A DNA stretch of 54,667 nt from Spirochaetaceae bacterium (lineage in GTDB: Bacteria; Spirochaetota; Spirochaetia; Treponematales; Rectinemataceae): the NCBI GenBank assembly GCA_025356015.1, contig JANXYO010000089.1:1-54667 (forward strand). Direction: 5' to 3'. Both the position numbers and the translations under genes were made by a program. Under the pieces are notes generated by a model that was given only the letters and a program-made list of their open reading frames with translations, had not been told where the DNA came from and did no database searches. Numbering within the stretch: the stretch's first letter is position 1; every line of letters starts with the position of its first letter. Shown here in pieces: positions 8,703-31,371 of this stretch.

Positions 8703-9917
8703 CTAGGCTTCCTTCACCCTGCGCCCGAGCTCACGGCCGCGCGCGCGCAGGACCTCGAGGGCAGCCTCGTCGGGGATGCCGGGCCACTCGACCGATTCGA
8801 GGTTGTTCCACTTCAAGGGGGCTATGGCTTCCTCGTACTCCTTGCGGGCCCCGCCGACCCAGCCCCAGGAACCGATCCGGAGGGCCGTCCTCCCCCAGAC
8901 GTGCTTGCGGTCGAAGAGGTCGAGGACATAGGCCATGGGCGGGAACATCTTGTACTCGTAGGTAGGCATCGCGATGAGGATGCCCTCGCTCTTGTAGGCG
9001 TCGGCCAGGATGTAGGACGCGTCCTCGTTGGGCACGCGGTGCATGGAATAAGGCACGCCCTCGTCCTCGAGGCCCTGGAGCACGGCCTTGAGGCCCCTCT
9101 CGGTGTTGCCGTACATCGATCCCCAGACGACGCAGACTTCCTTCTCGCGCTTCCCGTCGAGGTAGCTCGCGTACTTGGTGTAGCGGTCGACGATGGCCCG
9201 GGGCCCGGCCCTCCAGATCATGCCGTGCGAGGGGGCGACGGCCCTGAGCTCGAGGCCGGCGAGCTTCTCGACGGCCCGCTTCACGAAGAGCCCGAAGCTC
9301 GAGACGATGTTCGAGTAGTAGCGCAGGCTCTCTTCTTCGAAGCGCTCGTGCTCGCCTGCGTTGAACTGGTCGTCGAAGACCCTGTCGCCGAGCATGCCGA
9401 AGCTCCCGAAGGCGTCGCATGAGAATAGGGTTCCCGAGGAGGGCTCGTAGCTCATCATGGTCTCGGGCCAGTGCACGTTGGGGGTCTCGATGAACACCAG
9501 CTTGAGTCCGGCCCCGAGATCGAGCTCGTCGCCGCTTTTCACCACCCTGACGCCCTCGGTCACCTTGTAGAAGCTCCGCAGGAGCTCGCAGCCCTTGGCC
9601 GTCGCGAGGATCTGGACCTTGGGGTTGAGGCGGCGGTACTCGGCCAGCCAGCCCGTGTGGTCGGGCTCGAGGTGGTTCAGGACGAGGTAGTCGACATCGG
9701 CTAACTTGACCCCGGCCTGGGAGAGGCCGGTCTCGAGGGCCGCCGGGGCCCCGCCCCAGTCGCGTACGAGGTCGACGAGGGCGATCTTCTCGCCCTTGAG
9801 GAGGTAGGAGTTGAGGGAGACCCCGTCCGGGATGGGCCAAATGCCCTCGAAGAGGTCCTCTGTCCTTACGTCGGCGTGGATTGCGTAGATCCTGTCGTTG
9901 ATCGCGTGCGCTTTCAT
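8703..9917 (-). CDS. fprA: Flavodiiron protein (A-type flavoprotein, FprA family)
   Basis: The protein (404 residues) is a cytoplasmic NO and/or O2 reductase that detoxifies these gases in anaerobes, receiving electrons from rubredoxin or F420-type partners. The metallo-beta-lactamase half holds the full diiron set: H82-x-E84-x-D86-H87 (NHLEPDHTG), H149, D168 (SCDAFGSFG) and H231 (PSHGMIW). The flavodoxin half begins near residue 258 with the FMN loop WGSMYGNTE. No rubredoxin domain is fused. I start at ATG 9917 because a good promoter ends 6 bases before it, ruling out upstream codons and implying a leaderless mRNA. It diverges from the NO reductase gene at 10100, pointing to NO defence. Confidence 0.93.
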   Translation of the reverse strand: MKAHAINDRIYAIHADVRTEDLFEGIWPIPDGVSLNSYLLKGEKIALVDLVRDWGGAPAALETGLSQAGVKLADVDYLVLNHLEPDHTGWLAEYRRLNPKVQILATAKGCELLRSFYKVTEGVRVVKSGDELDLGAGLKLVFIETPNVHWPETMMSYEPSSGTLFSCDAFGSFGMLGDRVFDDQFNAGEHERFEEESLRYYSNIVSSFGLFVKRAVEKLAGLELRAVAPSHGMIWRAGPRAIVDRYTKYASYLDGKREKEVCVVWGSMYGNTERGLKAVLQGLEDEGVPYSMHRVPNEDASYILADAYKSEGILIAMPTYEYKMFPPMAYVLDLFDRKHVWGRTALRIGSWGWVGGARKEYEEAIAPLKWNNLESVEWPGIPDEAALEVLRARGRELGRRVKEA

Positions 9918-22111: not shown

Positions 22112-24385
22112 TCAAGGGACGCTCTGGCGCTGGGCCCTGACCTCGGTGGGGACATTCTTGTCTATGATGTAGATGCAGACCTCCTTCGCTCCGATCTCAG
22201 TGTAGTTGTACCTGGTCTGGAGGTTGTGGATCAGGTACATGACGTCCCGCCTCACCTTGTGGTCGTAGGACTCGAACTCCTTCATCCGGTATTCCTTGAT
22301 GGCGTTCCTGAAGATGTCGTTGCCGAGGAAGGGCTCGAGGGCGTTGTTCTTGAGGTTCTTCACGTATTTCTGGTAGAGCTCCTTGTACAGCTCGGTCTGG
22401 CCGAGCTCCTTCTTCTCGGACTTCATCTCGCGGGCCGAGACCGAGATGAACTTCTCGAGGACCTCCTGTCTGTAGGCGAGCCTGTCGGCCTCGCCCGCCT
22501 CGTGGCCGATCAGATAGTCCTCGACGCTCCTCAAGAAAGCGTCGCTCACCTCGATGATGCTGCCCGTGTAGATGCTCTTCTCCTTGGCCCCGATGTCGAA
22601 GTTCACGGCGAAGATGTAGTTCGAGATGTTGTTGGCGAGCTCCTGCTGGTTGTAGGAGTACAGGCACTCGTTGACCTGCTGCAGGACGCTGTAGTCGTAG
22701 GACCTGACCAGGGACTCCAGGAAGTCGTCGAGGATCCTGTCCTTGTACTCGGAGTTGGGCCGCTCGAAAAAATCGTAGACCATCTTCATGTTGATGAGCC
22801 TTCCCTTCCTCCAGTAGACCGAGTAGAAGTCGCTGAAGATGTTGAGCGACTCCCTGCCGGTGAAGCCCGAGAAGCCCTGGTCCTCGCTCTCGTTGATGAT
22901 CTTCCTGCGGAACTTGGCCTTGAACCTCCGCAGGTCGTCCTCGGCTATCCACTCGGGGATGTGGCCCGTGTAGAGGTCCATCTTGAGCAGGAGGAAGTCG
23001 GGGTCGCAGAAACGCGCGTACTTGCGCGAGTCGCCGAGCCACTCCTTCACCCCCTCCGAGCTCCTGTCCAGGCGCGAGGCGATGAGGACCTTGGCGAAGT
23101 TCTCGAGGACGTGGGGGAGGAACATGTCGCCGATGTTCGCGCCGAAGCGGTTCTTGTAGATCTGGACCTCGGTGTTGTAGTCGAGGACATAGGGCATCCT
23201 TATGTGCACGCTCCTGTCCAGGAGGGATCTCTTTGAGTCGATGAACTCCTTGTCCTGGGGGTTGATGAGGCCGAGGAAGAGGCTCTTGATCCTCTCCTCG
23301 ATCGTCTGCACCTTGTGGATCCCGTCCGAGATGATCCCGTGGAGGTGCAGGATGCGCAGGCGGTTGTAGTTCTTGATGTCCATGAGGGCATAGATGCCGT
23401 TGTTGGTCTGTGCGAGGGAGGAGTGGACGTATTTGACGAGGTTGCTGTCGGAGAGCATGTCGTCGATGGCGGCCTGGAGCACGGGGTTCAGCACCGCGCT
23501 CCTGCGGTATGCGTCGCCGGGGTTGTAGACGCTGATCCCCTCACCCAGGCGCCGGTTGAAGCGCATCCGCCTTGGATGGAGCATGCCGAGGGCGGCGATG
23601 GGGGAGCCGACCTTCTCGAGGATGGCCTCGAAGAGGGAGGCGCAGATCGTGCAAGGCTCTTCCTTGAATATCCACTTGTACTTCTTCTCGCCGAAGAGCC
23701 TGCGCTTGAAGTCCTCGTCCTCGATGACCTCCCAGAGGAGCTGCTTCCGGTAGGCCTTCGGGATCTGGGCTGTGGGGTGGTCGTGGTTGGGGCAGGGGAC
23801 CTGGAGGTACCTCTCCTTGTCGTAGAAGGCATCGCCATCGGGGCCCCCCTCGGCCTCGCCGCAGTCGGCCGCATCGGCTGGCTCCCTGTCCTTGCGCTTC
23901 CCTCCCTTGAAGAGGTGTCTGTCGATCTTCCAGAAGGTCTCGTAGTGCTCGCCCTCGTCGCTCTCCATGTAGTTCTCGAACCGGGCGAGGAAGCGGTTCA
24001 GGAAGGTGCTCTTGCCCGAGCCGGGCGGGCCCTCGAAGAGGTAGATCTTGTGCCAGTCCGGCACCTGGTTGAAGCTGTTGATCAGGTTCATGAACCTGTT
24101 GGCGAAGAGCCTGTCAGCGAAGAAGGGGCTGTCGGTTCCGTTGACGAGGAACTCCGAGAAGTCATAGCGGACGAACTTGATGTTCTCGGGGTCAGAGGGG
24201 TTCTCATCTGTGCCCTCGGGGACGTAGTAGTGGACCATGTCGTAGACCAGCTGGAAGATGTCCCTGAGGTTCTTCTGGGGCCTCTGCCTCAGGGCCTCGA
24301 GGTAGTCCCTGAAGCTGATGATGGTGTTCTTGCCCTCTTCCCCAAGGCTGTTTCCCAGCTCGTCGAGGATGCCGTCTATCTCCAT
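22112..24385 (-). CDS. PrkA-like serine protein kinase, divergent paralogue
   Basis: The protein has 757 residues. The AAA+ core has Walker A GPPGSGKST (119-127), and later landmarks match PrkA (ILHLHGIISDGIHKVQTIEERIKSLFLGLINPQD, RSLLDRSVHIRMPYVLDYNTEVQIYKNRFG). Between the two lies an insertion with an acidic/basic stretch and a Cys/His set, C198, H201, H203 and C245-x-x-C248, which looks like a metal site. The C-terminal third (RKIINESEDQGFSGFTGRESLNIFSDFYS) keeps the PrkA-type region. PrkA proteins act in stationary phase, stress or sporulation. It is last in the operon, one base after SpoVR. The GCGCC/GGCGC inverted repeat at 22083-22101 may be its terminator. The role of a second PrkA is unknown. 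Confidence 0.85.
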   Translation of the reverse strand: MEIDGILDELGNSLGEEGKNTIISFRDYLEALRQRPQKNLRDIFQLVYDMVHYYVPEGTDENPSDPENIKFVRYDFSEFLVNGTDSPFFADRLFANRFMNLINSFNQVPDWHKIYLFEGPPGSGKSTFLNRFLARFENYMESDEGEHYETFWKIDRHLFKGGKRKDREPADAADCGEAEGGPDGDAFYDKERYLQVPCPNHDHPTAQIPKAYRKQLLWEVIEDEDFKRRLFGEKKYKWIFKEEPCTICASLFEAILEKVGSPIAALGMLHPRRMRFNRRLGEGISVYNPGDAYRRSAVLNPVLQAAIDDMLSDSNLVKYVHSSLAQTNNGIYALMDIKNYNRLRILHLHGIISDGIHKVQTIEERIKSLFLGLINPQDKEFIDSKRSLLDRSVHIRMPYVLDYNTEVQIYKNRFGANIGDMFLPHVLENFAKVLIASRLDRSSEGVKEWLGDSRKYARFCDPDFLLLKMDLYTGHIPEWIAEDDLRRFKAKFRRKIINESEDQGFSGFTGRESLNIFSDFYSVYWRKGRLINMKMVYDFFERPNSEYKDRILDDFLESLVRSYDYSVLQQVNECLYSYNQQELANNISNYIFAVNFDIGAKEKSIYTGSIIEVSDAFLRSVEDYLIGHEAGEADRLAYRQEVLEKFISVSAREMKSEKKELGQTELYKELYQKYVKNLKNNALEPFLGNDIFRNAIKEYRMKEFESYDHKVRRDVMYLIHNLQTRYNYTEIGAKEVCIYIIDKNVPTEVRAQRQSVP

Positions 24386-25993
24386 CTACAGCTCCCGCCT
24401 CTCGAGCTTCTTGTCCTTCATCGAGTACATGAGCCGCTTCTTCACGAGGTAGGGCTCGGTTCCCTCGCCCCGCTTCTCGAAATGCATGTCGGTGGTCTCG
24501 AGCCTCACGCCCCCTCCCCAGAGGAACTCGGCGCCAAGGAGGGTGTTCGCGATGAACGAGGCCACGAGGGGCTTGCCCTCGTCGCGGTGGACCAGGTAGA
24601 GCCAGGCCTCGTCGCTCCGGCCCTCGTCCACCACGATGTGCGGCGGATGCCAGAGGGAGTCGATTATCATCTGCTTGTAGTCCTCGGCCTTCCTGCTCTT
24701 CACGATGTACTGCCAGGCCCTCTTGTCCGGCTTGAGGACCTTCTCGACAGTGAAGAGACCGTGCCGGTTCACGAATTCCTGGTCTAAGTAGGTATTCACG
24801 AGGGTGAAGTCGCAGTGCTCCTCCCTGAGCTTGAAAAGGAACTCGGTGCCCTTCCCCGTCCTCTGGTCGAAGAGCTTCCTCTTCTCGATGTTGCGGGTCC
24901 TCTGGTAGTCGTAGGAGATCCTGCCCTTCTCGGCGAGGCCGCCCACATAGTCGATGAGCCTCATGCCGATCGCGTAGGGGTTGATGCCGATCTTGGGCAG
25001 GCTCGTCACCTTCGCGTGGACGAGGGCGAAGTCGACCTCGTGGCCGGAGATCCTGTCGTCCTTGAGGTAGAGCCTCTCGTGCCAGTAGCTCGCCCAGCCC
25101 TCATTGAAGATCTGGTCCCTCCTCTGGGGCTCGAAGTAAAGGGCGGTCTCCCTGACTATCGTCAGGACCGACTTCATCCACTTGTTCTCCTCCTTGTTGA
25201 GGAAGGGGGAGTTCTGGAGGAGGTACTCGATGAGGTCGCTCGGCCATTTCTCGGCCTTGAGCACGGAGCGCTCATAGAGGGAGTCGAACTCGGGGTAGCT
25301 CGTCTTCACCTCGGAGAAGAAGAGGGACTCGCCGATCGAGGGAGTCTCCCTCGACAGCTCGTTGTAGCGCTTCATGTTCTGCAGGTACTCGTGGTGGGGC
25401 GCCTTCTTGATCTTCTGGAGGAAGACGTCGAAGTAGAAGTCCATGCGCCTCGACCAGGCGGAAGTCCTGCCTTCGGTGGCCGTGGACAGCTCGCGGTAGT
25501 AGCCGCAGATGTTGTCGATCCCCCTCGCGAACTCGATCACGTAGTCGACCCAGCGGCCGTGCTCGCTGCGCAGCCTGGCGATGAGGCGCTTGTCGGCCCT
25601 CGCCCTGCCCAGGAAGTCGTCGGTCCAGGTGTTCTTGAAGAAGACGTTGTTGTGGAAGAAGTCGATGTGGGCGAGGACGTGGTAGAAGATCATCACGTTT
25701 AGCCAGTCGGGGTTGTTGTCGTTGTAGAAGGAGATGGGCGGCCTCGTGTTGATCACTGTCTCGTAGGGGTTTGTCGGGTAGAGCTTGTACTTCTCCTTCT
25801 CCATGATGATCCTGATGTCGTTGACCCAGTAGTCGTAGAGGGTGGGGATCATGGACCGGGGAGCGAGCTCGAGCATGTCCTGGTTGGTGACGATGTACTC
25901 GAGGGACTCGTCGTCGAAGGAGAGGCCCGCGTCACGCGCCCGCAGCTTGCACTCCTCCATGATGCGCTTCACGCCCTGGTCTATGAGCTTCAT
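24386..25993 (-). CDS. SpoVR family protein
   Basis: The protein has 535 residues, the usual SpoVR size. Family stretches include LAPRSMIPTLYDYWVNDIRI, PPISFYNDNNPDWLNVMIFYHVLAHIDFFHNN, DYVIEFARGIDNICGYY, NEGWASYWHERLYL and INPYAIGMRLIDYV. SpoVR proteins are needed for the spore cortex in Bacillus, but they are common in non-spore-formers next to PrkA and DUF444, where the function is unclear. The ATG overlaps the DUF444 stop (ATGA), showing translational coupling. Confidence 0.92.
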   Translation of the reverse strand: MKLIDQGVKRIMEECKLRARDAGLSFDDESLEYIVTNQDMLELAPRSMIPTLYDYWVNDIRIIMEKEKYKLYPTNPYETVINTRPPISFYNDNNPDWLNVMIFYHVLAHIDFFHNNVFFKNTWTDDFLGRARADKRLIARLRSEHGRWVDYVIEFARGIDNICGYYRELSTATEGRTSAWSRRMDFYFDVFLQKIKKAPHHEYLQNMKRYNELSRETPSIGESLFFSEVKTSYPEFDSLYERSVLKAEKWPSDLIEYLLQNSPFLNKEENKWMKSVLTIVRETALYFEPQRRDQIFNEGWASYWHERLYLKDDRISGHEVDFALVHAKVTSLPKIGINPYAIGMRLIDYVGGLAEKGRISYDYQRTRNIEKRKLFDQRTGKGTEFLFKLREEHCDFTLVNTYLDQEFVNRHGLFTVEKVLKPDKRAWQYIVKSRKAEDYKQMIIDSLWHPPHIVVDEGRSDEAWLYLVHRDEGKPLVASFIANTLLGAEFLWGGGVRLETTDMHFEKRGEGTEPYLVKKRLMYSMKDKKLERREL

Positions 25994-27246
25994 TTCTCCG
26001 ACACCATGTCCTTGATGCCCTCGATGATCGCGGTCTCCGCGGCGTCCTCGCGGAGCACGGAGAGCCTGATCAGCTTGCGCCTCGTCGCGAGGATCTTTGA
26101 GCGCTCGAGGTAGCCCTCCATGGCCGTCCCGCCCCTCGAGTTCACCAGGGTTATCCCGAGGCGGTTCACCTTGGCCAGCATGATGTCGAGCTGCTCGAGG
26201 GCCTCCTCTCCCTCGTTGTTCCGGTCGTCCCCGTCCGTCCCGTGGAAGACATAGATGTTGTAGTCCTTGGCGAGGCTCTCGGTCTTGATGATGCGGTTTA
26301 CCAGGGCGTAGGCCTCGGCGATGAAGGTGCCGCCGGCAATGCTCAGGTTGTAGTAGGACCAGAAGTCGGGCACCTCCCTCGCGGTGTCGTCGTGGAGGAC
26401 GAAGCGCGACACGACCCGGTTCTCGTACTGGTAGGCCAGCCAGCTGTAGATCATGAGGTGCTGGGAGGTGACGATCTCGGTCGGGGGACCGCTCATCGAG
26501 GCGGAGTAGTCGCGGATGAAGAAGACCATGGCCTGGGACTCGTAGTCCTTCTCGCGGGAGAGGATGCGGTAGACCTTGTCCCTCGGGTCCACGAGGAATT
26601 TCGAGGGGTCGATCCGCGCGACATCAGGGATCCTCCCCAGGGCAAGGTTGGTCTGGATGATCCGCCGGAGGGTGGCCTTTTTGTCGAGGAACTGGCCGAA
26701 TCCCCTGTTCTTGTCGGTGAGGTCGTAGACATAGCGGGTGAAGCTCCGCTTTTTGCCCTTGTCCTTGAGGTTGGGCAGCTTGAACTTCTCGGTGAGGATC
26801 TTTCCCAGGTCGTAGGCGTTGGAGGTGATGTCGTGGCCCTCCACGCTCCCCGAGCCGGCGCCCTGGCCTTCCTGGCCCTCGCCGTGGACGCTCTCCTCGC
26901 CGAGGATATCGCCCTCCTTCTCGCTCCCCGTGCCGCCTGTCGCCTCCCCCCGTGCCGAGTCTCCCCCCCCGTCCTGGTCGCCTCCCTGGCCAGAAGTGGG
27001 GATCTCCGTGTGGTAGAACTTCTCCTCGACCGTCGTGGGCACGAGGATGATCTTGTCCTTGCCCACGGTCCCCGGCCTGATGAGGCGGCCAAGCCTGATC
27101 TTCCTGGGGAAGCCGTCCTCCTCCCGCCTCTTGTCCCGCTCGAGGATCTCCTCGAGGGTCTTCAGCTGGATGTAGTAGGGGGTCTCCGATATGGACCTCG
27201 GCGGGACGTCCTGCCGAGGGAGGCCCATTGGCGGAGGGCGCCTCAT
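25990..27246 (-). CDS. DUF444 (YeaH/YhbH) family protein with VWA domain
   Basis: The protein has 418 residues from ATG 27246 (MRRPPPMGLPRQD), which overlaps the upstream PrkA stop. N-terminal part: IQLKTLEEILERDKRREEDGFPRKIRLGRLIRPGTVGKDKIILVPT. A Gly/Glu/Ser-rich low-complexity segment follows (about 95-140). The C-terminal half is a von Willebrand-A-like domain with the metal motif FFIRDYSASMSG (D-x-S-x-S), FVLHDDTAREV and VFHGTDGDDRN. DUF444 proteins are conserved partners of PrkA and SpoVR (yeaG-yeaH and ycgB in E. coli). The reading frame stays open far upstream inside the PrkA gene, but that part is not this protein. Confidence 0.92.
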   Translation of the reverse strand: MRRPPPMGLPRQDVPPRSISETPYYIQLKTLEEILERDKRREEDGFPRKIRLGRLIRPGTVGKDKIILVPTTVEEKFYHTEIPTSGQGGDQDGGGDSARGEATGGTGSEKEGDILGEESVHGEGQEGQGAGSGSVEGHDITSNAYDLGKILTEKFKLPNLKDKGKKRSFTRYVYDLTDKNRGFGQFLDKKATLRRIIQTNLALGRIPDVARIDPSKFLVDPRDKVYRILSREKDYESQAMVFFIRDYSASMSGPPTEIVTSQHLMIYSWLAYQYENRVVSRFVLHDDTAREVPDFWSYYNLSIAGGTFIAEAYALVNRIIKTESLAKDYNIYVFHGTDGDDRNNEGEEALEQLDIMLAKVNRLGITLVNSRGGTAMEGYLERSKILATRRKLIRLSVLREDAAETAIIEGIKDMVSEK

Positions 27247-29306
27247 GTCTCGTCTTCCTGGGTCGTGTAGTACTCGAGGGTCTTCTCGGAGCAGGTCTTG
27301 CAGTAGTGCAGCTTGTTGATCATCGTGTCCATGAGGCGGTTGTAGAGCTTCTGGTTGTCCTCGTCGGTGCGGTTGGCGAGGGCGCCGATGAGGCTGCCCG
27401 CGCTGCCTATGTCGGAGTTGAGCCGGACATCGGTCACCGCCTTCACGAGCTCGAGGTTGTCCATGAAGTTGTAGTTCTTCTCGGTGGCGATCTTCTGGCC
27501 GTAGAGCTTGCGGATGATGGTCCTGAAGGACTCCCTCTGCTCCTTGGTGCGCAGGCCCATCCTCTCCTCGACGTTCTCGATGTACTTCTCGTCGATCTTT
27601 ATCGCCGCGAGCTCCCCCGTCTGGGGGTCGGGATACTTCCACATCATGTCGGTGGCGAGGGTCTCGGCGTCGATGCCGACAATCATGTTGACATAGTTCA
27701 TCACATTTTTCTCGATCGCCTTGGGCTCGTCCATGTAGGCGTCGAAGATCTCGACCTTGATCTTCTCCTTGTAGAGGGCCTGGGCTATCTTGAGGTCCTC
27801 GAGGTACTTGGAGCGGTCGTTGGGGTCCTGGATGTAGTCGAGGACCACGGTCTTCAGGGCCCTGAAGATGTCGCGGGCGAACATGCAGTTTCCCTCGTTC
27901 GTCTCGGAGCTCTCCAGCACCAGCTGGACGGCCCGCCCGAGGTTGCGCTGCCCCAGGCCCTTCTGGCCGAAGCGCTTGGTTATGTCGGCCTCGGTCTGCA
28001 GGTCGTCGATGATCTCGCGCAGGGTCTTGATTGACTTTTCTCCGGCGACCTCTCCGGCGGCGAGCTTCATGGTCTCCACGGGGGTGAGCTTGTCTGAGCG
28101 CGGGAGGCGGGTGAGGGTGACGGCCACGCTCGAGGCGTAGTTGAAGTTCGGGTCGATGTGGAGGGTGGCCTTGCTGAAGGTGGTCTTGTTCCTGCCGCCG
28201 ATCGCGTATTCGGTGAGTTCCTTCTGGAGGATGTAGTCGGTGTTGTGGGAAACGTAGCAGAGCCTGCAGCGGTCGATGATCGGCGCCTCCTCGCGCTCGG
28301 CGAGGAAGTTGTTGAACTCGGCGTTGTTGCTTGTCGCCACGATGAGGGTGTCGATCGGCCACTTGTAGCCGTCGATCTCGATCACACGGTTCTGGATGAT
28401 GCCCAGGTATATCTGGACCAGGTCGCGCTTGTTCTTGAAGATCTCGTCCGAGAAGTGGATCCCGCCGCCCGCCACCCTTGCCAGGGCGCCCCTCCTGAGG
28501 TCGAACTTGTAGGGATTGTTCGTGTCGCTCAAGTGCAGGAGCCGCTGGATTGACTCCTCGCCAAGGAGGTCGACCGATGAGGAGGTGATCTTGTCCTTCG
28601 CGGGATACTTGCCCGTCACGGTGCCCAGGGTCTCGCTCATGGGCACGGGGACGATGCGGAAGTGCTTCTTCATCTCCTCGACGTCGCCTGCGCAGTGGTT
28701 GCGCACATCGTTCAGGATGTAGTGGCTGCAGGCGCCGAGGGGTGTGTAGTTCTTGTAGAGCGTGTCAATCTCGCTCTCCTTGAAACCCATCGACCCAAGG
28801 TACTTTCGGCTCCCCTCCTCGCTCTCGAAGAGGTTCATCGCGAGCTTCATGGGGTCCTCGTAGGTCTGGGACTCGATGCGCTTGATCATCCCGTAGCTGC
28901 CGATCTTGTCCATGTCCTCGAACGCGAAGGTGTAGCGGCGGTTCTGGGGCAGGGAGAGGAAATCGCGGTAGAGGCTGCACAGGTAGTCGATGAAGAAGGT
29001 CTTGCCGTTCCCGGGCTCGCCGATGAGGACGAAGGCCATCTCGGAGGACGAGCCTGTCTCGGCGGCGTCCTTGACGAAGGAGACGAAGCTGTTGAGCTCG
29101 TCGTACATCCCGATGATGTGCTTCGGCCCTTCGCGGAAGACCCTGAAGTTGTAGGTCGTCTTGCCGTTGACCTTCACCTTCTCGATCCTCGAGTTGTCGC
29201 CCAGGATCATCCGGGAAATCGACTGGAAGACGTTTTCGAAGATCCTTTTCTTCTGCGCCACTTCCTTTACATGGTGATCGAGGGAGTTGAGTGCGTATTC
29301 AGCCAT
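27243..29306 (-). CDS. prkA: PrkA serine protein kinase
   Basis: The protein has 687 residues, counted from ATG 29306 with GGGGAGG upstream. Canonical PrkA features are the N-terminal VFQSISRMILGDN, PKHIIGMYDELNSFVSFVKDAA, Walker A IGEPGNGKT (95-103), YTPLGACSHYILND, LLGEESIQRLLHLSDTNNPYKFDLRRGALARVAGGGIHFSDEIFKNK and IDTLIVATSNNAEFNNFL (sensor 1 region), then the C-terminal PrkA domain. It ends with CKTC and EYYTTQEDET. It is the first gene of the operon PrkA-DUF444-SpoVR-PrkA. PrkA was described as a serine kinase; protease activity has been claimed too, so the biochemical role is open. Confidence 0.92.
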   Translation of the reverse strand: MAEYALNSLDHHVKEVAQKKRIFENVFQSISRMILGDNSRIEKVKVNGKTTYNFRVFREGPKHIIGMYDELNSFVSFVKDAAETGSSSEMAFVLIGEPGNGKTFFIDYLCSLYRDFLSLPQNRRYTFAFEDMDKIGSYGMIKRIESQTYEDPMKLAMNLFESEEGSRKYLGSMGFKESEIDTLYKNYTPLGACSHYILNDVRNHCAGDVEEMKKHFRIVPVPMSETLGTVTGKYPAKDKITSSSVDLLGEESIQRLLHLSDTNNPYKFDLRRGALARVAGGGIHFSDEIFKNKRDLVQIYLGIIQNRVIEIDGYKWPIDTLIVATSNNAEFNNFLAEREEAPIIDRCRLCYVSHNTDYILQKELTEYAIGGRNKTTFSKATLHIDPNFNYASSVAVTLTRLPRSDKLTPVETMKLAAGEVAGEKSIKTLREIIDDLQTEADITKRFGQKGLGQRNLGRAVQLVLESSETNEGNCMFARDIFRALKTVVLDYIQDPNDRSKYLEDLKIAQALYKEKIKVEIFDAYMDEPKAIEKNVMNYVNMIVGIDAETLATDMMWKYPDPQTGELAAIKIDEKYIENVEERMGLRTKEQRESFRTIIRKLYGQKIATEKNYNFMDNLELVKAVTDVRLNSDIGSAGSLIGALANRTDEDNQKLYNRLMDTMINKLHYCKTCSEKTLEYYTTQEDET

Positions 29307-29334
29307 GGCGAGCGGCCTCCCCTGGAACATCCGG

Positions 29335-29365
29335 GTTCTAGCGGAACGCCCACCTTCGACCGTAA
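29335..29365 (-). promoter_or_regulatory. Possible promoter of prkA operon
   Basis: TTACGG (29365-29360), 19 bases, TAGAAC (29340-29335). Leader about 20 bases with GGGGAGG. The -35 is weak and a sigma-54 type site was looked for and not found. The rest of the 324-base gap to ychF holds no gene I can support. Confidence 0.35.
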
Positions 29366-29565
29366 TTGCTTGCCGTGCAACCGCCTGCCTGGAGGTGGTC
29401 GGGGCAAGGAACAGTATGGGACGAAGCTGCGAGGCGTTCGTCGCGGAACGGATCTATGCCCCCAATATACCCATGTTCGGGGAGCTAATGCGCCAGGCGC
29501 GGCCGATTGCCCCTGGCCCGGCCCCGGTCCGCTCCGGAAGGGCCAGGGCAGCGGGTGGCATTCCG

Positions 29566-29593
29566 TTGACCTTGGGAGCCCATTCCCTATACA
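29566..29593 (+). promoter_or_regulatory. ychF promoter
   Basis: TTGACC (29566-29571), 16 bases, TATACA (29588-29593), about 30 bases of leader before ATG 29631. Confidence 0.65.
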
Positions 29594-29630
29594 GTGTCCC
29601 CATCCACGAACCCATTCGCGCGAGGTTTTC

Positions 29631-30734
29631 ATGCCCCTCAACTGCGGTATCATCGGCCTGCCGGGCGTAGGCAAGACCACAATCTTCACGGCCCTCACGC
29701 GGGTAAAGGCCGAGACCTCGAGCTACGGCTCCTCGGCCAAGAACCCCAACCTCGGCATCATCTCGGTGCCCGACCAGCGCCTCGACAGGCTCGCCGCCAT
29801 GTTCAAGCCCAAGAGCGTCGTGCCCGCCACCGTCGAGTTCGTCGACATCGCGGGCCTCGGCTCGGCGGCCTCGAAGAAGGAGGGCGCGACCAACCAGTTC
29901 CTCTCCCACATCCGCGACTCGGCCGTCCTCGTCCACGTCGTGCGCTGCTTCGACAACCCCGACCTGCCCCACTCAACGGGAAGGATCAGCCCGGCCGACG
30001 ACATGGAGATAATCCACATGGAGCTCGCGTTGGCCGATCTCGAGACCATCGACAAGCGTGCCGAGAAGCTCCAGAAGGAGCTCAAGGACCCGGGCAAGAA
30101 GAAGGAGGCCGAGGCCGAGCTCGCCGCCTTCGCCAAGATCAGGCCCCTGCTCCAGGAGGGCAAGCCGGCGCGCAACGCCGTCCTCGAGCGCGAGGAGGCC
30201 GAGGCCGTCCGCCGCTCCTTCCTCATCACGACCAAGCGCGAGATCTACGTCTGCAACACCGACGAGGACGGCGTGAAGGCGGGCAATCCCTACATCGAGG
30301 CGGCAAGGCGCCAGGCCGAGGCCGAGGGCGCCGAGGCCGTCGTCATCTGCGGCAAATTCGAGGCCGAGCTCGCCGAGCTCCAGAGCGAGGAGGACAAGGC
30401 GGAGTTCCTTTCGGAGCTCGGCCTCGCCGAATCGGGGCTCTCGGCCCTCATCCACGCCTCCTACCGGATGCTCGGCTTGCGCACCTTTTTCACGGCCGGA
30501 GAGGACGAGTGCCGGGCCTGGACCATACACCTCGGGGACAAGGCCCCCGTCGCCGCCGGCGTCATCCACACCGACTTCGAGAAGGGCTTCATCAAGGCCG
30601 AGGTCTACCACTTCGAGGACCTCATGACCCATGGCTCCGAGCACTCGGTCAAGCTCGCCGGCAAGCTCCGCCAGGAAGGCCGCGAGTACGTGGTGCAAGA
30701 TGGCGATGTCATCTTCTTCAAGTTCAATCTCTGA
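29631..30734 (+). CDS. ychF: Ribosome-binding ATPase/GTPase YchF
   Basis: An Obg-related P-loop protein of 367 residues. G1 is GLPGVGKTT (8-16), switch region NPNLGIISVPDQRLDRLAAMFKP, G3 VEFVDIAGLGSAASKKEG, and FLSHIRDSAVLVHVVRCFDNPDLPH; the G4 equivalent is IYVCNTDED, divergent from NKxD as in all YchF, which prefer ATP. The C-terminal TGS domain (AGVIHTDFEKGFIKAEVYHFEDL, YVVQDGDVIFFKFNL) is complete. It associates with ribosomes and is tied to oxidative stress control and translation fidelity. Start is ATG 29631; longer frames upstream are not conserved. Confidence 0.96.
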   Translation: MPLNCGIIGLPGVGKTTIFTALTRVKAETSSYGSSAKNPNLGIISVPDQRLDRLAAMFKPKSVVPATVEFVDIAGLGSAASKKEGATNQFLSHIRDSAVLVHVVRCFDNPDLPHSTGRISPADDMEIIHMELALADLETIDKRAEKLQKELKDPGKKKEAEAELAAFAKIRPLLQEGKPARNAVLEREEAEAVRRSFLITTKREIYVCNTDEDGVKAGNPYIEAARRQAEAEGAEAVVICGKFEAELAELQSEEDKAEFLSELGLAESGLSALIHASYRMLGLRTFFTAGEDECRAWTIHLGDKAPVAAGVIHTDFEKGFIKAEVYHFEDLMTHGSEHSVKLAGKLRQEGREYVVQDGDVIFFKFNL

Positions 30735-30744
30735 CATCGCCCTG

Positions 30745-31371
30745 ATGGCGGCCACCGCGGGAGCGCATGCACAAATGGGCGGCCAGGAGTCTGGGGGGCA
30801 GGCGGCAGGGCGCGGAGAGGGCCTGGCCTTCCTCGACTGCCCTGAAGCCCTGATCCTCGTCCTCGGCTCCTTCCCCTCGCTCAGGTCCCTCGAGAAGGGC
30901 GAGTACTACGGGAATGAGCGCAACCATTTCTGGGATGTACTGGGCATGGTCTTCGACGCGGCCGTCCCGGCCGACTATGCCGGGAGGCTCGTCCTCCTCG
31001 CGCAGCGCCGCATCGCCGTCTGGGACGTGATAGCCGCCTGTGAGAGGAAAGGGAGCCTGGACAAGGACATCGCCGCCGAGCTTCCGAACCCCGTCCTGGA
31101 TGTTCTGGCCTCAAGGCAGACGATATCGCGCATCGCGCTCAACGGAGCCAAGGCCGCCGCCTCCTTTCTCACCCATGTTGCCCCCGAGCTCGGGGCGAGG
31201 GCGCCCGCCATGGGAGTGGTGCTAGGATGGCGGCCCGCTTCACTTGGCGGCCGACTCATCAAGGTCGCCCGCCTGCCCTCCACAAGCCCCATCCCCACCC
31301 GTGGCTGCCGCTGCGCCGCCGACAAGGTCGGCGCCTGGGGTGCTTTCCTTGCTTCCGCCGCGGAAAGCTGA
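30745..31371 (+). CDS. DNA glycosylase of the Mug/TDG superfamily (deoxyinosine/hypoxanthine type)
   Basis: The protein (208 residues if started at ATG 30745, 198 from ATG 30775, which has GGGAG 11 bases upstream) matches the uracil-DNA-glycosylase superfamily, family 6: ILVLGSFPSLRSLEKGEYYGNERNHFW is the glycosidic pocket and Asn catalytic segment, VWDVIAACERKGSLDKDI the next helix, and RIALNGAKAA the C-terminal motif. Family 6 enzymes remove hypoxanthine or uracil produced by deamination. It follows ychF by 10 bases and probably shares its transcript. The extreme C-terminus (CRCAADKVGAWGAFL) fits this family. Confidence 0.82.
   Translation: MAATAGAHAQMGGQESGGQAAGRGEGLAFLDCPEALILVLGSFPSLRSLEKGEYYGNERNHFWDVLGMVFDAAVPADYAGRLVLLAQRRIAVWDVIAACERKGSLDKDIAAELPNPVLDVLASRQTISRIALNGAKAAASFLTHVAPELGARAPAMGVVLGWRPASLGGRLIKVARLPSTSPIPTRGCRCAADKVGAWGAFLASAAES

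Follow-up and report, generated by a model that had tools for sequence, protein, structure and literature searches.

The PrkA/YeaG–YeaH(YhbH)–YcgB(SpoVR) stress operon, known from Escherichia coli, Bacillus and Rhizobium, is widespread, and no mechanism has been agreed for it. YcgB, YeaH and YeaG are reported to be co-conserved (PMC2375023), E. coli yeaG and yeaH mutants to share a common nitrogen-starvation phenotype (PMC4664914), and PrkA of Bacillus anthracis to be required for sporulation and for osmotic-stress resistance (PMC13001217). The very label of PrkA as a Ser/Thr kinase is disputed: the B. anthracis protein is described as forming oligomers with ATP, its autophosphorylation and protease activity being undetectable (PMC13001217), whereas a kinase residue of YeaG is reported to be needed, and YeaG substituted in either its AAA+ or its kinase domain is stated not to complement (PMC4664914). 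Here we describe a four-gene form of this system in a 54,667-nucleotide stretch of DNA from a Spirochaetaceae bacterium (assembly GCA_025356015.1, contig JANXYO010000089.1, positions 1 to 54,667 of the forward strand; hereafter the window). It holds the same three families, with PF06798 in both of its PrkAs; the ordinary trio, however, has one PrkA, whereas the window form has two, which share out between them features that in most other PrkAs are combined in one protein.

The trio of the window follows the order prkA-vWA-spoVR reported for the Rhizobium etli operon (PMC3188799). A two-PrkA arrangement is, moreover, already on record for haloarchaea, in all genomes of which two adjacent PrkA-related genes are stated to be always accompanied by genes for DUF444 and SpoVR (Anderson et al., 2011; PMC3102087); an earlier note on this DNA had held the four-gene form not to be described in detail, a claim that this published statement does not support. 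Compared by that statement alone, the haloarchaeal cluster is like the window in that DUF444 and SpoVR are accompanied by two PrkA relatives, but its PrkA genes are adjacent, whereas those of the window flank DUF444-SpoVR (PMC3102087). Among the papers listed by full-text searches of open-licence PubMed Central, none dealt with the four-gene form in bacteria or with features shared out between two PrkAs, and this complementary division, as read from aligned residues, is what our analysis adds.

Among better understood machines, the MoxR-type pairs NorQ-NorD, RavA-ViaA and CbbQ-CbbO, and also ChlI-ChlD, consist of an AAA+ ATPase and a vWA protein that are encoded together, as in the window. The Mg-chelatase ChlI-ChlD has an active AAA+ subunit and a degenerate one. 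By analogy, the MoxR AAA+/vWA pairs would be the nearest understood machines to the PrkA system, NorQD being the source of the AAA+/vWA comparison (PMC13036017). The window is unlike them in three respects: its PrkAs match PrkA models and no MoxR-named model in Pfam, it encodes a separate SpoVR, and PrkA has a C-terminal domain of its own.

The four genes follow one another on the minus strand, head to tail, between 29306 and 22112. PrkA1 (P0002, 687 amino acids (aa), AAA+) occupies 27243..29306 (-), from an ATG at 29306 to a stop at 27243; the vWA-like DUF444/YhbH-YeaH protein (P0004, 418 aa) 25990..27246 (-), from an ATG at 27246; SpoVR (P0003, 535 aa) 24386..25993 (-), from an ATG at 25993; and PrkA2 (P0001, 757 aa) 22112..24385 (-), from an ATG at 24385. 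The stop of PrkA1 overlaps the start of DUF444 in an ATGA, as does the stop of DUF444 the start of SpoVR, while the SpoVR stop TAG runs directly into the ATG of PrkA2, with zero bases between. PrkA1-DUF444-SpoVR is thus the adjacent, single-strand trio in its usual order. Pfam matches are clear but for the AAA domain of PrkA2 (PrkA1, PF06798 at 121.6 bits and PF08298 at 49.6, cut-off 25; PrkA2, PF06798 at 115.3 bits, cut-off 25, and PF08298 at 21.7, below 25; SpoVR, 194.3; DUF444, 94.5). DUF444 is in addition above threshold for the NCBIfam equivalog NF003712 (‘hypothetical protein’; 593.2 bits vs. 421), while at E 0.001 neither PrkA matched any NCBIfam model. A weak match of PrkA1 to AAA_5 (dynein-related; 22.9 bits vs. 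22) has no single stretch that passes alone. These two PrkAs are the only PF06798 matches in the window genome. The four genes that the earlier note had drawn, with their limits, and its second, divergent PrkA beside the trio were both borne out.

The two PrkAs carry complementary sets of residues. In PrkA1, Walker A (K102), Walker B (D287-E288), sensor-1 (N327) and D345-R346 are all intact; it has no AAA-domain Cys trio, and its C-terminal Y-C669-K-T-C672 is present (C669-K-T-C672 at 27291..27302 (-), counted from ATG 29306; the counterpart of the canonical C-terminal GYCxxCA, found in 26/27 PrkA1). In PrkA2, Walker A (K125), sensor-1 (N375) and D390-R391 are likewise intact, the Walker-B Glu is replaced (M335-D336), the AAA-domain Cys trio is retained and the C-terminal CxxC is absent. 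These states were counted in a single 167-PrkA alignment, each group dereplicated at 97%, with A for the C198 column, B for C245 plus C248, C for the C-terminal CxxC, and E or D for the Walker-B Glu column. Every PrkA2 was AB-/D (28/28, from 29 rows), and PrkA1 was --C/E in 26 cases and ---/E in one (L040, without CxxC; n=27 of 28). The other PrkAs, by which we mean all aligned PrkAs outside PrkA1, PrkA2 and a third type of pair described below (104 rows, 88 dereplicated), were ABC/E in 58, AB-/E in 24, A--/E in three and ---/E in three; the third-type pair (n=4 of 6) gave one --C/E first copy and three ---/D second copies. The picture was the same with dereplication at 80% (others, 43/5/2/3 of 53; PrkA1, 16 + 1 of 17; PrkA2, 27/27). 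Most of the other PrkAs come from one scan keeping 80 of 310 loci, the first peptide pattern of which contains the C198 motif and so biases the C198 frequency upward; the two CxxC sites are absent from its patterns. Their copy number is two in one genome (G674) and not known for viral contigs. PrkA-like frames shorter than 600 aa (580 aa in the viral set) were left out, and that of Pontibacillus (599 aa) was added by annotation.

The Walker A Lys, the sensor-1 Asn and the DR pair were invariant in both clades (28/28 in PrkA2), and Walker A and Walker B were intact in 27/27 PrkA1. Because these three features are invariant, PrkA2 is not simply decaying, and from general AAA+ knowledge it looks like a subunit selected to bind ATP without hydrolysing it efficiently. 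If the Walker-B alignment is moved by one residue, D336 becomes the Mg-binding Asp and the catalytic Glu is replaced by Ile/Val or another residue; under either alignment, PrkA2 has no Glu at or beside the Walker-B Glu column, and in three cases (L008, L009 and L035) a Glu stands three residues beyond it.

The two-PrkA operon is present in several bacterial groups and is not unique to the window. The complete operon, in the same order and on one strand, was read in 21 of the genomes examined (the window, L005, L008, L009, L011, L073-L084 and L090-L093) and in two viral contigs. A gene of the PrkA1 or the PrkA2 clade is present in 26 genomes altogether, of which 25 have both kinds (18/19 if genomes are counted only where a PF06798 draw met them without being centred on them, G074 included, which was also met by the PrkA2 scan); in these counts, G074 and G296 were taken as one genome, and L004, L005, L015 and L021 as one PrkA2 gene, counted once. 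In the exception, G831, the contig stops just past PrkA1 and cuts the DUF444 gene. Five of the 26 have an incomplete operon: the contigs end in G297 and G831; PrkA1 in G298, and PrkA1-DUF444 in G301, lie on another contig, both PrkAs still being present in each genome; and in G729, PrkA1-DUF444 lies far from SpoVR-PrkA2 on one contig, PrkA2 running into the contig end. Seven genomes came from a genome-contig scan for PrkA2, and each had exactly two PF06798 matches, one per kind. Ordinary PrkA was seen in none of the genomes with the pair, the numbers being too small for a test. Gene spacing in the relatives, taken to the nearest ATG with other start codons not considered, ranges from -11 to 411 bases; given this range, the argument of the earlier note from tight overlaps to a fixed stoichiometry is weak, and it was rejected.

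By phylum, 6/296 genomes in the phylum of the window exceeded the PF06798 cut-off: two have the pair (G000 and G074), two an ordinary PrkA (G068 and G131), one (G013) a 151-residue ordinary-type fragment and a weak second match, and one (G005) was spurious and was dropped as not PrkA, its frame looking malonyltransferase-like by eye. A further match, in G379, was dropped as below the cut-off. The second match in G013 (L018:1462-2997 (-)) is a weak PrkA C-terminal match of 35.8 bits beside a gene that is MoxR-like by eye, and it possibly marks a further PrkA-like system. In the phylum of G300 (L009, titled Bacteroidetes), 6/296 exceeded the cut-off, five with the pair (G300 included) and one with an ordinary PrkA (G473). 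In that of G297 (Geobacter-titled; L011, titled Pseudomonadota, was in nearly the same draw), 33/247 did so: 14 with PrkA1 and PrkA2 (G297 included), one with PrkA1 only (G831), three with third-type pairs and 15 with ordinary PrkA only, G674 having two ordinary copies.

The two viral contigs, from IMG/VR (L189 and L190), hold the whole four-gene order on one strand, next to a primase-like gene in L189 and, by PHROG, to genes for RecT, an exonuclease, an ERCC4-type nuclease and a primase/helicase in L190. In L190, PrkA1 and DUF444 are separated by a ClpP-like gene (9026-9619; PF00574, 65.3 bits; PHROG, ATP-dependent protease). SpoVR-PrkA2 is found in L187 and in L188, a near-copy of L187. The trio occurs on many other IMG/VR contigs, with the order DUF444-SpoVR-PrkA in 31 of the 80 loci kept. 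We also observed a viral-contig trio clade of 29 loci between L108 and L137 (not L109), 23 after dereplication, that have this order and a PrkA without the C-terminal CxxC. PrkA2 relatives were not found in phage and plasmid collections at E 1e-5, and PrkA1 matched, against plasmids at E 0.01, only a Thermomicrobium PrkA. A Ralstonia jumbo phage is reported to carry SpoVR, vWA and PrkA genes (PMC8504454).

PrkA1 and PrkA2 are highly divergent from each other: their best BLASTP match (22.7 bits, E 0.058) does not cover the full length, and HHalign of their profiles aligned the P-loop region only (66 columns, probability 58.4). PrkA2 and ordinary PrkA profiles aligned over 603 columns (probability 99.8), with the same motifs paired. 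Identity to the window protein is 63-83% for PrkA1 (four relatives) and 40-57% for PrkA2 (seven relatives). We built two trees, a quick IQ-TREE of 71 PrkAs with Shimodaira–Hasegawa-like approximate likelihood ratio (SH-aLRT) supports and a FastTree of all 167. In the former, PrkA1 (14 rows; 100), PrkA2 (15; 100) and the other PrkAs (38; 99) each fall on one side of a branch; in the latter, PrkA1 (28) and PrkA2 (29) do so with support of 100 each, and the 29 viral rows without the C-terminal CxxC form one group. PrkA1 and PrkA2 share one side of a branch in both trees (support 98), and one old duplication is suggested as their origin by this grouping; alongside them stand the second copy of the third type (IQ-TREE) or both of its copies (FastTree), and both runs warn of long-branch attraction.

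This third type is a highly divergent PrkA-DUF444-SpoVR-PrkA operon seen in L085, L086 and L087, of the Geobacter-titled phylum. Like PrkA1 and PrkA2, its first copy has the Walker-B Glu and the C-terminal CxxC, and its second copy has Asp and no CxxC; unlike them, neither copy has the AAA-domain Cys trio. The first copy is unstable in the trees, where, on long branches, it joins the ordinary PrkAs (IQ-TREE) or the side of PrkA1 and PrkA2 (FastTree).

The Cys/His residues that the earlier note had picked out in PrkA2 (C198, H201, H203, C245 and C248) lie where it placed them, but not in an insertion. Aligned in three ways (HMMER to 9xip, MAFFT and HHalign profiles), C198-P-N-H201-D-H203-P204 (23774..23794 (-)) is the counterpart of the canonical CPMHEEP and C245-T-I-C248 (23642..23653 (-)) that of the canonical LCPxC, both counted from ATG 24385; the only solved relative found at E 0.001 is 9xip (‘Serine protein kinase’; PDB relatives 9xip/9xiq/9xir). 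A metal site as a new insertion was rejected on this ground; the main variable stretch of PrkA2 is residues ~156-195 by HHalign, with no conserved Cys inside. Across 28 dereplicated PrkA2, C198, C245 and C248 are invariant (28/28), H201 is nearly so (H in 25/28, N in 3), and H203 is not (H in 15/28, N in 12, S in 1); a Cys cluster kept by orthologues is borne out for C198, C245 and C248, and H203 as a ligand is not supported; for comparison, C175, C460, C574 and C737 are present in 1, 21, 1 and 19 of 28. All three Cys are also found in 82/88 dereplicated PrkAs outside the two clades. The PrkAs of E. coli, Legionella and Sinorhizobium have none of the trio, and those of Bacillus licheniformis, Pontibacillus and L155 only its first Cys. 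Since it aligns with the CPMHEEP...LCPxC of ordinary PrkA, the trio is a constrained yet ancestral PrkA feature, kept by PrkA2 and not by PrkA1.

The metal-ion-dependent adhesion site (MIDAS)-type residues D246, S248, S250, T307 and D338 of DUF444 were found in 77/77 sequences, and by these residues it is a vWA-like partner with a complete MIDAS set. In SpoVR, H105xxxH109, N297-E298-G299 and D395 were present in 60/60, H469 in 59/60 and H305 in 57/60, a conserved His/Glu/Asp set that suggests a metal centre; a PDB search with SpoVR gave no match better than E 0.11. Both counts include at most 25 viral rows each, and dereplication was by exact stretch only. On profiles derived for the most part from the four-gene form, its SpoVR and DUF444 proteins are separated by score from their counterparts in the trio.

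We reasoned that in the two-PrkA form the work of one PrkA-type AAA+ ATPase may be split between two specialised proteins in a mixed ring or oligomer. PrkA1, with its intact Walker A, Walker B, sensor-1 and Arg-finger-like positions, would be the ATP-hydrolysing subunit; PrkA2, without the Walker-B catalytic Glu, would bind ATP and offer an Arg in trans as a structural or regulatory subunit, and would retain the ancestral Cys-rich element of the AAA domain, which is probably zinc-stabilised. Coupled through the vWA-like DUF444 to a client, most likely SpoVR, this motor might remodel or metallate the client as in the MoxR-type pairs NorQ-NorD, RavA-ViaA and CbbQ-CbbO. A mixed motor is favoured because both PrkAs occur in 25/26 genomes, because their residue losses mirror each other, and because both are kept even where their genes lie apart (G298 and G301). 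The hetero-PrkA complex that the earlier note had raised is the most natural reading, better supported now by the complementary losses and the co-occurrence, and we consider a PrkA1-PrkA2 hetero-assembly reasonably probable; the fuller proposal of a two-PrkA variant in which DUF444 and a mixed AAA+ motor together act on a client, SpoVR or another, is one that we favour narrowly. What was observed is the operon, the co-occurrence, the clades and the residue states; the hetero-assembly, the division of labour, the metal binding, the identity of the client and a role in surviving stress or starvation are inferred.

Several points weigh against this proposal. PF08298 (AAA_PrkA) scores only 21.7 bits in PrkA2, below the cut-off of 25; the AlphaFold models are poor (mean predicted local distance difference test score 66.2 for PrkA2 and 42.5 for PrkA1, from shallow alignments of 8 and 5 rows), and searching known folds with the PrkA2 model brought up nothing under E 0.001. 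An Asp in place of the Glu need not abolish hydrolysis, the fourth ligand of the Cys element is uncertain (the H201 column is H/N/F/Q = 55/24/6/3 in 88 other PrkAs), and an operon suggests co-expression, not contact. No MoxR-named Pfam model was among the PrkA1 or PrkA2 matches at E 0.001, and the NorQD comparison is for this reason an analogy. The YeaG kinase-domain substitution K426A is also reported to fail to complement, in a source that cites in-vitro YeaG kinase activity (PMC4664914), which favours the kinase reading over a pure AAA+ one, and yeaH, not yeaG, is stated to contribute to antimicrobial-peptide resistance in Salmonella Typhimurium (PMC2375023), which speaks against tight coupling within the trio. 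Alternatively, each PrkA could make homo-oligomers of its own that serve different clients or signals, the two sharing an operon and a stimulus and no complex; PrkA2 would then act as an ATP-bound switch and not as part of a motor. The extreme divergence of the two, whose profiles meet at the P-loop only, their unequal conservation (63-83% vs. 40-57%) and the genes outside one cluster in G298 and G301 would fit such an arrangement; it would leave the near-constant co-occurrence and the mirror-image losses to be accounted for, as well as the loss of the Walker-B Glu throughout PrkA2 while the Arg position is invariant, and we regard it as possible, on the unlikely side.

As to the Cys-rich element, a regulatory sensor in PrkA2 for metal or redox state would be in keeping with three Cys that never vary in this clade, and CxxC pairs can be redox-active; the same Cys in 82/88 other PrkAs are, however, not special to PrkA2, a new sensing site as raised in the earlier note is not supported, and in several ordinary PrkAs the trio is absent or reduced to its first Cys. 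Structural zinc is the simpler reading, and sensing seems quite improbable. Least probable of all do we find an unfoldase that feeds a peptidase in the manner of Lon or Clp: the ClpP-like gene of L190 would suit it, but it occurs in that one contig, BLASTP of it against open reading frames from L001-L100 and L107-L190 returned only itself at E 1e-4, and pure B. anthracis PrkA is reported to lack protease activity (PMC13001217).

Within a mixed PrkA1-PrkA2 ring, the AAA-domain CxxC of PrkA2 and the C-terminal CxxC of PrkA1 might form one four-Cys site across the subunit border, fixing the register of an obligate alternating ring. The C-terminal CxxC without the AAA-domain CxxC in 0/88 other PrkAs fits this idea, and, if true, a site once held in one protein would have been divided between two; we nevertheless consider it doubtful, as the AAA-domain CxxC has no C-terminal counterpart in 24/88 (23 from one viral-contig clade, and L140), the C-terminal Cys pair is missing from L040 (G498) although its PrkA2 is intact, and in the third-type pair a C-terminal CxxC occurs with no AAA-domain CxxC. 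A strict coupling of the two CxxC sites was rejected on those 24 counter-examples, which fall in two lineages of a viral-contig sample.

Around the operon, a pyridoxal phosphate (PLP) aminotransferase gene (PF00155; 20707-21981 (-)) lies downstream of PrkA2 on the same strand, followed on its 3' side by a terminator-like hairpin of 16 pairs with a T run (20678-20642 (-)); in the window it may belong to the transcript as a fifth gene, and BLASTP of its product against open reading frames from L001-L100 and L107-L190 matched only the window’s own loci. Upstream of PrkA1, the divergent gene in the later part of the frame 28662-30734 (+) looks, by eye, like one for a YchF/Obg-type GTPase. Family scans of the stretches 29594-30745, 29594-30742 and 29597-30731 had no match, these probably being in a frame other than that of the gene. 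Rfam gave nothing above gathering scores between 19000 and 31000.

For the PrkA family, a natural system with two AAA+ partners, of which one apparently hydrolyses ATP and the other apparently does not, sets the parts of the machine apart genetically; it indicates which features belong together, and it predicts a mixed motor. The two-PrkA form leans towards an AAA+/vWA remodelling machine, with which a kinase activity is still compatible.

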